A DNA stretch of 53,622 bases from an uncultured Granulosicoccaceae bacterium. Its GTDB lineage: Bacteria; Pseudomonadota; Gammaproteobacteria; Granulosicoccales; Granulosicoccaceae. The first letter of the stretch is position 1. Every line of letters begins with the position of its first letter. This document shows positions 37,163-40,080 of the stretch, in pieces. Position numbers and translations under genes: made by a program. Under the pieces are notes generated by a model that did no database searches, was not told the origin of the DNA, and saw only the letters and a list, made by a program, of their open reading frames with translations. The stretch covers positions 1-53,622 of the forward strand of contig CALIHW010000044.1 of NCBI GenBank assembly GCA_938020525.1. The letters are read 5' to 3'.

Positions 37163-37858
37163 TTGATTCACCTCCATGAACTGCAAAAAACTGTCGGCAA
37201 TCGGTGTGTATTCTCGGATTTGACCCTGTTTTTGCCAAAAGCCTCCTATACTCTTTTATGTGGTGAGAGACACTCTGGCAAGACTACGCTGGTGCGTATG
37301 CTGCTGGCCTACGAACGGCCTGACAAGGGCACGCTGACCGTTGACGGTATCGATATAGGCAGCATTCCCGACAGCCGGATTCCGTACTTAAGACGCCAGA
37401 TTGGACTGATCGCCGACACACCGGTACTGCTTGAAGACAGATCGGTATTAGAAAATATCGCCGTTCCACTTCAACTGGCAGGTTTTGAACAAGACGTCAT
37501 TAGTCAACGCACAAACGAATTACTGCAAACTACTGGCTTAAACAATGAAACTAATACACAGGTAAGCAAACTCACAGATAAGACACGTCAACTGGTTTCA
37601 GCTGCAAGAGCTGTTATTCACAAACCAACAATTGTGATAGCTGACGAGCCTTTGCAGAATGTTGATAAAGAAACGGCGGGGTTGATTGTCAGTCTGTTGA
37701 ATGAAGCAAACTCATCAGGTGCAACAGTGCTGATCACATGCCAAAGCGACGCACAGTTGTTGCATCTGGTTTCGACAAACGCAAAATCATTGGTGCTTAC
37801 TGCAGGATCCGATAGAAACAATGAATACTTTAAACCTGAGTCGGGAAAAAACGCGTAA
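37163..37858 (+). CDS. ftsE: Divergent FtsE, cell-division ABC ATPase
   Basis: A 231-residue ATPase in the ftsY-ftsE-ftsX position. FtsE powers FtsX, which controls septal peptidoglycan hydrolases. Walker A (GERHSGKTTL, near 34-43) and Walker B (IVIADEP, near 153-159) are intact, and LRRQIGLIADTPVLLEDRSV matches the FtsE region. However, the Q-loop Gln is absent (IAD for FQD), the signature LSGGEQQR is LTDKTRQL, and the H-loop His is lost (ITCQSDAQL for ATHD). Start is TTG at 37163. It overlaps ftsX by 38 bp. Position and flanks make the identity fairly sure despite divergence. Confidence 0.85.
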   Translation: MIHLHELQKTVGNRCVFSDLTLFLPKASYTLLCGERHSGKTTLVRMLLAYERPDKGTLTVDGIDIGSIPDSRIPYLRRQIGLIADTPVLLEDRSVLENIAVPLQLAGFEQDVISQRTNELLQTTGLNNETNTQVSKLTDKTRQLVSAARAVIHKPTIVIADEPLQNVDKETAGLIVSLLNEANSSGATVLITCQSDAQLLHLVSTNAKSLVLTAGSDRNNEYFKPESGKNA

Positions 37859-38864
37859 CGATTATCCGCCTAGCTTAATTAAGCATGCCCCGCCTGTGCT
37901 TAGCGTAGCACCCGCCCCTGCCCTGGTAGATCAATCACCGATAGATCAAACACTGGTGGATCAGGTAGTGGCGGATCAAACACCAGCAGATCAGGCACCG
38001 CCAAAACAGGTGCCGCAAGAACAGGTCGAACACTCCGTGCCGATGCCACTATACGGGGAAAAAGCAGGCCTCATATCCCAGTTAAAAGACTGCATTAGTT
38101 CACTGTTCCGAAAACCACCCAAAGTCACAGCGCTGATACTGGCACTTGCTCTAAGCATTCCCGCCACCATTGCGATTCTGTCTAGCAGCTTTACATCGGC
38201 CGAAGAAAACCTGCTCGACAGCCGACACTTAACTGTCTTCCTCGCACCAGGAAACGACAACGAAGTATCTCAGCTGGCAAAAACTCTCGCTGCCAACAAA
38301 TACATTACTGCCACAGAATTGAGACCGATTGACTTGCAGAACAAAGAGGTGATGGCACTGGACGTTCATCCGGCGATGACACTCGATAAGACACAGTTGA
38401 GTTTTATTATTAATGAACTGAACAGTCACACATTGGTCGACTATGTAGCTGCTGACTTAACGTGGTTGGAGCGCAATGTCGAGGCAGTAGAAGCTGCCAG
38501 AAAATTGCGTCTGGCGAGTATGATCGCCGCTGGACTATTTACATCGATTATTGTCTTTTTGCTGACCTGCTCTGATTTGCCACGTCAACATTCTGAGCTC
38601 AGAGCACTAACGCAAATGGGCGCAAGCCAAAAAATGCTCCAAAAACCACTGCTATTGAGAAGCATGTTGTTGGCCCTGGCGGCGGGCATAACTGGAACGT
38701 TGCTGGCATGGATTAGCATTGCAAACTTGCCTAACTTAGTGGAGATGTCCACTTACGAGCAGATTTTGCCTCGCTCATTCCCGGCAGCGAGCATGGTTTC
38801 TATTGTTTTACTGGGCATATTCTGCAGCATTATGACCGTTAGATTGCTTGGGAAAGTGCGATAA
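37821..38864 (+). CDS. ftsX: Cell division protein FtsX
   Basis: A 347-residue permease-like FtsX with four helices, near residues 95-115 and in the last 110 residues, and a periplasmic domain between that binds hydrolase activators. Helix 1 region is KVTALILALALSIPATIAIL. The cytoplasmic N-terminus is extended by an unusual VDQxP pentapeptide tract (residues about 36-70), coded by 15-bp repeats at 37926-38030. It overlaps ftsE by 38 bp. The C-terminal helices are conventional. Confidence 0.88.
   Translation: MNTLNLSREKTRNDYPPSLIKHAPPVLSVAPAPALVDQSPIDQTLVDQVVADQTPADQAPPKQVPQEQVEHSVPMPLYGEKAGLISQLKDCISSLFRKPPKVTALILALALSIPATIAILSSSFTSAEENLLDSRHLTVFLAPGNDNEVSQLAKTLAANKYITATELRPIDLQNKEVMALDVHPAMTLDKTQLSFIINELNSHTLVDYVAADLTWLERNVEAVEAARKLRLASMIAAGLFTSIIVFLLTCSDLPRQHSELRALTQMGASQKMLQKPLLLRSMLLALAAGITGTLLAWISIANLPNLVEMSTYEQILPRSFPAASMVSIVLLGIFCSIMTVRLLGKVR
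37926..38030 (+). repeat. Seven 15-bp tandem units in the ftsX 5' region
   Basis: Units begin at 37926 and every 15 bp; five are clear (GTAGATCAATCACCG, ATAGATCAAACACTG, GTGGATCAGGTAGTG and similar) and two are degenerate. They encode VDQSP, IDQTL, VDQVV, ADQTP, ADQAP, PKQVP, QEQVE. Confidence 0.9.
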
Positions 38865-38963
38865 TATTTTATATTTCAATATGTTAAGGTACTTTTTGCG
38901 TTTTTCTGTCATTGACTATGGTTCAGGGAAAAGTGGCCGTTAAATGGGGAACTTTTAGCGCTG

Positions 38964-38990
38964 TTAGCACTCTGATGCTGTGAGTGCTAA
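38964..38990 (+). promoter_or_regulatory. Perfect CIRCE operator (HrcA site) in the rpoH promoter
   Basis: TTAGCACTC, 9-bp spacer TGATGCTGT, GAGTGCTAA: an exact match to the CIRCE consensus bound by the HrcA repressor. It spans a likely promoter, TTAGCA at 38964-38969 with TAAAAT at 38988-38993 (18-bp spacer), 36 bp before the rpoH ATG. It predicts HrcA repression of the heat-shock sigma factor. Confidence 0.93.
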
Positions 38991-39025
38991 AATAGAGCAT
39001 AACAGTCATATCAGGAGAATATTAA

Positions 39026-39898
39026 ATGGCCCAAGCTATGGTGAAAGCGTCAGCGATGACTTTGCCAGCGGTCAATGATGATCTGAATGGATATCTGGCA
39101 AAGATTTCCGCATTCCCGGTTCTGTCCATTGAAGAGGAACAGAACCTCGCCCGCAAATATCGCGACGAAGACGATCTCGAGTCTGCCGGGCAGATGGTAA
39201 TGTCACAGTTGCGCTTCGTGGTCCATCTGGCCCGCAGTTACTCAGGTTACGGATTACCGCTGGCAGATCTGGTCCAGGAAGGCAACATCGGCTTGATGAA
39301 AGCCGTCAAACGCTTCGACCCGGATGTCGGCGTGCGTCTAATATCGTTTGCGGTTCACTGGATTCGCGCAGAGATTCACGAGTACGTGATTCGCAACTGG
39401 CGAATTGTGAAAGTTGCAACCACGAAGGCTCAGCGCAAGCTATTCTTCAAGCTGCGAAGCTCAAAGAAAGGCTTGGGCTGGTTCTCTGCCGCCGAAGCAG
39501 AAGCGGTAGCTAAAGACCTCGGTGTCACTGAAGAACAGGTCTACGAAATGGAATCGCGTCTCACCAGTGGAGATATGTCCTTCGATGCCACAAGTGCTGA
39601 CGATGGCTCTGAAAAGCGTGCGTTGCGACCTGCGGAATATCTGTATCAAGATGATGTCGACCCGGCTGTAGCAGCCGAGAACGATAACTTCGCAGATAGC
39701 CAGTCTGCTACGCTCGCTGCTGGCATGGAAGATCTGGATGACCGAAGTCGCGACATACTGCAACGTAGATGGCTGAATGACGATGGCAAATCTACATTGC
39801 AAGAACTCGCGGACGAATACGATGTTTCTGCTGAAAGAATTCGTCAAATCGAGAAAGCTGCGATGAACAAGCTTAAGAGTCATATGCTAGACGCTTAG
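39026..39898 (+). CDS. rpoH: RNA polymerase sigma factor RpoH (sigma-32)
   Basis: A 290-residue heat-shock sigma factor. The N-terminus PVLSIEEEQNLARKYRDEDD, region 2 (LRFVVHLARSYSGYGLPLAD, LVQEGNIGLMKAVKRFDPD), the RpoH box QRKLFFKLRSSKK, and region 4 helix (YDVSAERIRQIEKAAMNKLK) are all present. AGGAG at 39013-39017 serves ATG 39026. It follows ftsX as in E. coli, but here it has its own CIRCE-controlled promoter. A bidirectional terminator closes the gene. Confidence 0.97.
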   Translation: MAQAMVKASAMTLPAVNDDLNGYLAKISAFPVLSIEEEQNLARKYRDEDDLESAGQMVMSQLRFVVHLARSYSGYGLPLADLVQEGNIGLMKAVKRFDPDVGVRLISFAVHWIRAEIHEYVIRNWRIVKVATTKAQRKLFFKLRSSKKGLGWFSAAEAEAVAKDLGVTEEQVYEMESRLTSGDMSFDATSADDGSEKRALRPAEYLYQDDVDPAVAAENDNFADSQSATLAAGMEDLDDRSRDILQRRWLNDDGKSTLQELADEYDVSAERIRQIEKAAMNKLKSHMLDA

Positions 39899-39927
39899 AC
39901 GACGCCACTTCATAACAACCCTCAATG

Positions 39928-39957
39928 AAAAAAGCCGCTCACCAGAGCGGCTTTTTT
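39928..39957. terminator. Bidirectional intrinsic terminator between rpoH and ctaB
   Basis: Stem GCCGCTC / GAGCGGC around an ACCA loop, with A6 before and T6 after, so it can work for rpoH (plus) and for the converging cytochrome oxidase operon (minus). Confidence 0.93.
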
Positions 39958-40080
39958 GCATCAAACAGTAACTCATCTCACCCGCTATTTTTCAGCCAAA
40001 GCTTTTCTACACTTTGCTGAAACAAAGTTCCATCCGGAATAAACAGCTTAAAGCACATTAAGTGAAACTCAATCGTTGCT

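Follow-up and report, generated by a model that had tools for sequence, protein, structure and literature searches.

A predicted CIRCE operator interleaved with sigma-70- and sigma-E-type promoter motifs upstream of rpoH in a Granulosicoccaceae bacterium and in sampled members of its class

The window analyzed here is the whole stretch of 53,622 nucleotides (53.6 kb) from an uncultured Granulosicoccaceae bacterium. On its forward strand, positions 39026–39898 hold rpoH, which encodes the heat-shock sigma factor sigma-32 (290 amino acids) and is preceded by a Shine-Dalgarno-like AGGAG read from the sequence (39013–39017, same strand). The initial annotation had taken this open reading frame (ORF) for rpoH, and a TIGR02392 score of 388.1 bits, above the cut-off of 323.1, bore this out. 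The predicted protein is 57% identical to Escherichia coli RpoH and keeps the stretch QRKLFF. Upstream on the same strand lies a diverged ftsX (37821–38864), which passed the PF02687 cut-off (29.6 bits vs. 25.5), fell under that of TIGR00439 (52 bits vs. 255), and was not matched to E. coli FtsX by BLASTP at E 0.001. FtsE in the window is strongly diverged like FtsX (157 bits vs. a cut-off of 265; the ftsE/ftsX region spans 37163–38864), and an unusual P-loop, by eye GERHSGKTT, was seen in the same region. On the 3' side of rpoH, at 39928–39957, GCCGCTC-ACCA-GAGCGGC stands between runs of A and T and resembles an intrinsic terminator; the terminator scan reported none there, and the A-T flanks possibly lengthen the stem into the T run. 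At E ≤ 1, Rfam gave six matches, none of which reached its gathering score. They lay together at 39895–40046 near the end of rpoH and none fell at the rpoH leader; a known RNA leader or thermometer at that place was therefore rejected.

The 161-bp gap between ftsX and rpoH contains a CIRCE operator, the predicted HrcA site, at 38964–38990 of the forward strand, with 9-bp arms and a 9-bp loop and with the rpoH start 35 bp downstream. It had been described as an exact inverted repeat of this type, and our scan of the window agreed: TTAGCACTC-TGATGCTGT-GAGTGCTAA has 0 mismatches to the consensus TTAGCACTC-N9-GAGTGCTAA. This was the single CIRCE in the window even when 3 mismatches were allowed, and shuffles gave 0.01. 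The whole assembly (4,530,489 bases in 224 contigs, 93.3% complete) held 2 sites at ≤3 mismatches, the perfect one at rpoH and one with 1 mismatch upstream of groES (Cpn10 match), and the reversed-pattern control gave 0 sites genome-wide. A 546-amino-acid ORF adjoins groES, as expected for groEL; the second site is taken as that of groESL.

The initial annotation made its reading of the site depend on an hrcA gene elsewhere in the genome, and such a gene was found (PF01628, 226 bits; TIGR00331, 327 bits vs. a cut-off of 197), followed by grpE, dnaK, and a dnaJ-like ORF. The 350 bases upstream of this hrcA held no CIRCE (best 7 mismatches), nor did those of 12 other members of the family (best 6 mismatches or worse); outside the family, a 2-mismatch CIRCE lay upstream of hrcA in 2 of the 4 genomes examined. 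This survey took 17 of 18 hrcA matches, a partial match of 48 residues being dropped. The sigma-32 consensus was then scored at the same places: upstream of the own hrcA it had 4 mismatches against 4 in the reversed control, and over the 17 genomes it did better than the control in 6, equally in 7, and worse in 4. A consensus sigma-32 promoter at hrcA, groES, or rpoH of the own genome was rejected, as none rose above the reversed control, and because the consensus scan was no better than that control, sigma-32 control of the own dnaK operon is only assumed.

The initial annotation had suggested comparing the rpoH upstream regions of related genomes, and we found the operator to be kept. The family sample comprised 25 genomes, two of them without an rpoH over the cut-off and one with a contig beginning inside the right arm. 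At all 22 readable rpoH genes the operator was present, 21 times perfect and once with 1 mismatch. On average, identity to the most frequent base was 1.00 and 0.99 in the two arms, 0.66 in the loop, and 0.42 in the far flank. The class sample was made of 143 genomes, each with another family code, 129 of which had rpoH at E ≤ 1e-80; one genome carried two copies, so that 130 rpoH genes were scanned over 300 bases upstream and 30 bases inside the match. At ≤3 mismatches, 95 of the 130 had a CIRCE (50 perfect, 33 with one, 6 with two, and 6 with three mismatches), and the reversed pattern gave 0 at ≤4 mismatches and never came below 5.

HrcA was found in 101 of the 143 class genomes, and the operator at rpoH was linked with it. 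CIRCE stood at 86 of 93 rpoH genes in genomes bearing hrcA versus 9 of 37 in genomes lacking a detected hrcA. With independent pairs differing in hrcA, counted by a script of our own over all branches of the best RpoH tree, supported or not, the medians were 15 pairs in agreement, 0 in disagreement, and 9 without difference (median p 0.0002, range 0.00003–0.002). Restricting the tests to well-supported branches left 5 and 3 pairs, which is too small a number, and the 5 pairs for hrcA versus operator were not significant. Among the 31 genomes whose sites were listed in full (≤2 mismatches), 29 had an rpoH match and 28 an hrcA match; rpoH carried a site in 28 of the former, and hrcA in 14 of the latter. 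The class-wide exceptions were seven rpoH genes without a site in genomes having hrcA and nine sites without detected hrcA. Four of these nine were in incomplete assemblies (62–85%) and five in assemblies at least 97% complete (G159, G040, G118, G152, and G099), for which an assembly gap, a recent loss, or another repressor are candidate readings. One of the seven was a second rpoH copy whose genome has the site at the first copy; this genome, G056, carries two rpoH genes (L093 and L100), one with CIRCE and one without, and may possibly have split them into an HrcA-controlled and a free rpoH. Judged from sequence, the arrangement is the rule among the sampled hrcA-bearing members of the class, which goes beyond the initial annotation. 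Its reading of the site, with HrcA set over sigma-32, is supported by the presence of hrcA and by this comparison of rpoH upstream regions.

The operator had also been placed across the rpoH promoter, and a predicted sigma-70-type promoter, TTAGCA-18-TAAAAT with a TG extension (38964–38993, forward strand, 9 of 12 consensus matches), indeed takes in both arms. Its −35 element TTAGCA (38964–38969) lies in the left arm, and its extended −10 element TAAAAT (38988–38993) falls in the right arm plus AAT. A further promoter-like match lies upstream at 38848–38875. Because shuffles of the region gave 0.7 promoter-like matches on average, the sigma-70 match says little by itself, and the argument rests on the comparison among genomes. 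At the −10 position, A at +25 and T at +29 occurred in 85 of the 95 operator-bearing promoters of the class. The arms were also unequal: position 2 of the left arm was G in 26 of 95 (TTGGCA or CTGGCA), and its mirror in the right arm was C in only 2 of 95, an asymmetry that is as expected if the −10 element constrains the right arm.

With both hexamers inside the arms, the conserved sequence might be nothing but a strong sigma-70 promoter, its likeness to CIRCE incidental and HrcA without a role; the nine sites without detected hrcA would also suit this explanation. Such a promoter has no need of GCACTC and GAGTGC, yet these were kept at 91–100% per position across the 95 sites, a figure raised by the choice of sites at ≤3 mismatches. 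Nor does a plain promoter account for the tendency of the site to go with hrcA (86/93 vs. 9/37; pairs 15/0/9), and we regard this explanation as very improbable.

A predicted sigma-E-type promoter, GGAACTT-16-TCTGA (38948–38975, forward strand), is interleaved with the operator, a point absent from the initial annotation. GGAACTT begins at 38948 and TCTGA occupies 38971–38975, so that the sigma-E −10 element falls within the left arm and loop of CIRCE; the motif fits the sigma-E consensus, GGAACTT-N15/16-TCNNA. It was read from the sequence and from a coupling seen across the class. GAACT stood at −15 in 22 of 22 family rpoH promoters, and GAAC at −16 to −14 in 62 of the 95 operator-bearing promoters of the class, compared with 0 of 95 at the mirror position of the opposite strand. 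Loop position 11 was A in 56 of 62 promoters with GAAC versus 12 of 33 without (p 6e-8, by a looser criterion picked after the stricter one had been seen and with shared ancestry ignored). The stricter test, which paired GAAC at exactly −15 with both T at loop position 9 and A at loop position 11, gave no significant coupling (p 0.15). T-N-A at loop positions 9–11 was found in 45 of 95 rpoH sites in the coding orientation and in 14 of 95 in the other, against 6 of 80 readings of 40 CIRCE sites away from rpoH. These 40 came from 46 off-rpoH sites among the 31 genomes listed in full; the omitted six were a two-mismatch site and five sites of two genomes in which rpoH was not matched. GAAC was absent from −16 to −14 in 33 operator-bearing promoters, and 8 of these had a sigma-E-like motif 30–42 bases further upstream.

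RpoE (TIGR02939) was above its cut-off in 96 of the 143 class genomes. GAAC was present in 60 of 80 promoters from RpoE-bearing genomes versus 2 of 15 from genomes in which RpoE was lacking or weak; in independent pairs on the RpoH tree, 7 went the same way, 1 the opposite way, and 3 showed no difference, which is not significant (median p 0.07). Our own genome supplied one of the 2 in 15: no canonical RpoE was found in its 93.3%-complete assembly (best 57 bits vs. a cut-off of 236), and 13 of 13 congeners had RpoE over the cut-off.

Considering that CIRCE is a perfect inverted repeat and that it has leader-RNA effects in Bacillus subtilis, the repeat could be thought to work as RNA, by a leader hairpin affecting mRNA stability or translation. 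The predicted sigma-70 start, at about 39000, is however downstream of CIRCE and the predicted sigma-E start, at about 38981, is inside it, so neither promoter would be expected to yield the full hairpin. The unequal arms (G at position 2 in 26/95, mirror C in 2/95) likewise fit promoter hexamers rather than kept pairing, with the caveat that G-U would still pair. Action as RNA seems to us a scarcely credible account of the site.

Put together as GAACT-N10-TTAGCACTC-TNA-N6-GAGTGCTAA-AAT, the composite pattern was scanned over one genome per species. At least 118 stretches had it, all of them readable, and an RpoH match came next in 116 of those 118. In the remaining two, the contigs end 153 and 197 bases past the site, and each site comes after an ORF with a match to E. 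coli FtsX (32% and 30% identity, E < 1e-55). By record title, the matches belonged to gamma- or betaproteobacteria, Methylovulum and Halothiobacillus among them, apart from one Hydrogenophilia, one titled Deltaproteobacteria, and 11 of the 118 without a class. In that scan, the composite motif is a signature of rpoH at the level of sequence. A separate draw from the phylum, in which hrcA was not scored, had the pattern at ≤3 mismatches in 7 of 51 genomes of the same class, our own included; four newly checked ones were followed by RpoH, and the other three, our own genome (G000), G036, and G110, had already been placed at rpoH. In the other classes of the draw, it occurred in 1 of 149 genomes and at no rpoH, this one match having no RpoH downstream within the stretch of sequence examined.

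Directly observed were the site and its conservation, the association with hrcA, and the promoter motifs interleaved with the site. From them we infer HrcA binding, repression, sensing through GroE, and use of both promoters, and we hold it very probable that 38964–38990 is the operator through which HrcA represses rpoH until misfolded protein titrates the chaperonin. Without stress, GroE-assisted HrcA on CIRCE would cover the −35 and −10 elements of the sigma-70-type promoter and the −10 element of the sigma-E-type promoter, and sigma-32 would stay low. HrcA would leave the operator once GroE is taken up by misfolded proteins, or once heat has inactivated the repressor. The free operator would allow rpoH to be transcribed by sigma-70 polymerase, joined by sigma-E polymerase under envelope stress, and sigma-32 would then turn on the wider heat-shock regulon with the other chaperones. 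Because the hrcA-grpE-dnaK-dnaJ cluster has no CIRCE, the DnaK arm would feel HrcA only via sigma-32, provided that sigma-32 transcribes it. GroE enhances HrcA binding in Campylobacter jejuni, and the titration model of B. subtilis is cited there (PMC8533110).

HrcA may also bind and do little beyond trimming the basal level, with translation and protein turnover mainly setting the output of rpoH, as in E. coli. The 57% identity with E. coli RpoH, QRKLFF included, speaks for this, and the predicted folding of 39001–39250 is modestly stronger than that of shuffles (z −1.7), which neither shows nor excludes a thermosensor. That lineages with hrcA keep the operator so strongly nevertheless suggests that HrcA has a material effect, and mere trimming appears to us rather unlikely, though far from negligible.

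A link between CIRCE and rpoH is already known in kind, a precedent that the initial annotation missed. A perfect CIRCE upstream of rpoH (−51) was reported for Geobacter sulfurreducens, with HrcA in the genome (Rodionov et al. 2004, PMC545781). As described there, this case is like ours in its perfect TTAGCACTC-N9-GAGTGCTAA at rpoH in a genome with HrcA. It differs in that it concerns one deltaproteobacterium, whose hrcA-grpE-dnaK-dnaJ operon has a CIRCE, whereas the operon here is without one. The consulted portion of that report contains neither an interleaving with sigma-E or sigma-70 promoters nor a claim on gamma- or betaproteobacteria. The classical HrcA/CIRCE regulon (groESL and hrcA-grpE-dnaK-dnaJ) shares with ours the operator, the repressor family, and the groESL site, but here the target is the gene of the heat-shock sigma factor and no CIRCE lies upstream of hrcA. 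The literature searched, mostly outside subscription papers and partly in excerpt, showed neither the composite architecture nor its class-wide prevalence, and as far as it reaches, what is new is limited to these two.

In E. coli, GAACTT-N16-TCTGA lies upstream of rpoH in the same geometry, in the sigma-E-like promoter labelled P3, and ftsX is directly upstream as well. The 300 bases before E. coli rpoH contain no CIRCE (best 7 mismatches), and the control genomes matched by HrcA did not include E. coli. Its rpoH promoter region is described as driven by RpoD or RpoE (PMC11609203).

The ancestral rpoH promoter of the class (gamma- with betaproteobacteria) could have been a three-input one, in which CIRCE interlocked a sigma-E-type and an extended −10 sigma-70-type promoter and HrcA gated both (AND). 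E. coli and other hrcA-less lineages would then have retained the sigma-E part after losing the operator, leaving the familiar OR logic, and the E. coli scheme would be a derived remnant. This history might equally well be right or wrong, its direction of change being one that we infer on an unrooted RpoH tree. If the AND gate is true, envelope stress would raise sigma-32 only when the chaperonin pool is overdrawn too, and an interlocked operator predicts that bound HrcA would keep sigma-E from inducing rpoH. Repression by HrcA and activation by sigma-32 are usually framed as separate strategies sharing some targets, in general knowledge and in PMC545781. The arrangement described here would place HrcA above sigma-32, at the sigma factor's own gene, in most of the sampled hrcA-bearing families of the class. 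If so, the textbook control of sigma-32 (translation, turnover, and sigma-E input) would describe lineages missing one layer.

A few rpoH regions of the class depart from the common operator. Possible remnants were seen in G101 (L108), which has no HrcA match and where GAACTT is kept and CIRCE damaged, and in G137 (L074) and G061 (L148), where hrcA is present and the right arm alone is intact. In L007 (G036) and L309 (G254), both of one family, the rpoH operators are changed in both arms, to TTAGCAGTC..GATTGCTAA and TTAGCAGTC..GACTGCTAA, the latter altered identically in its two arms and so still perfectly repeated, which suggests that the specificity of HrcA may have shifted. Several other families had GACTGC in the right arm alone.
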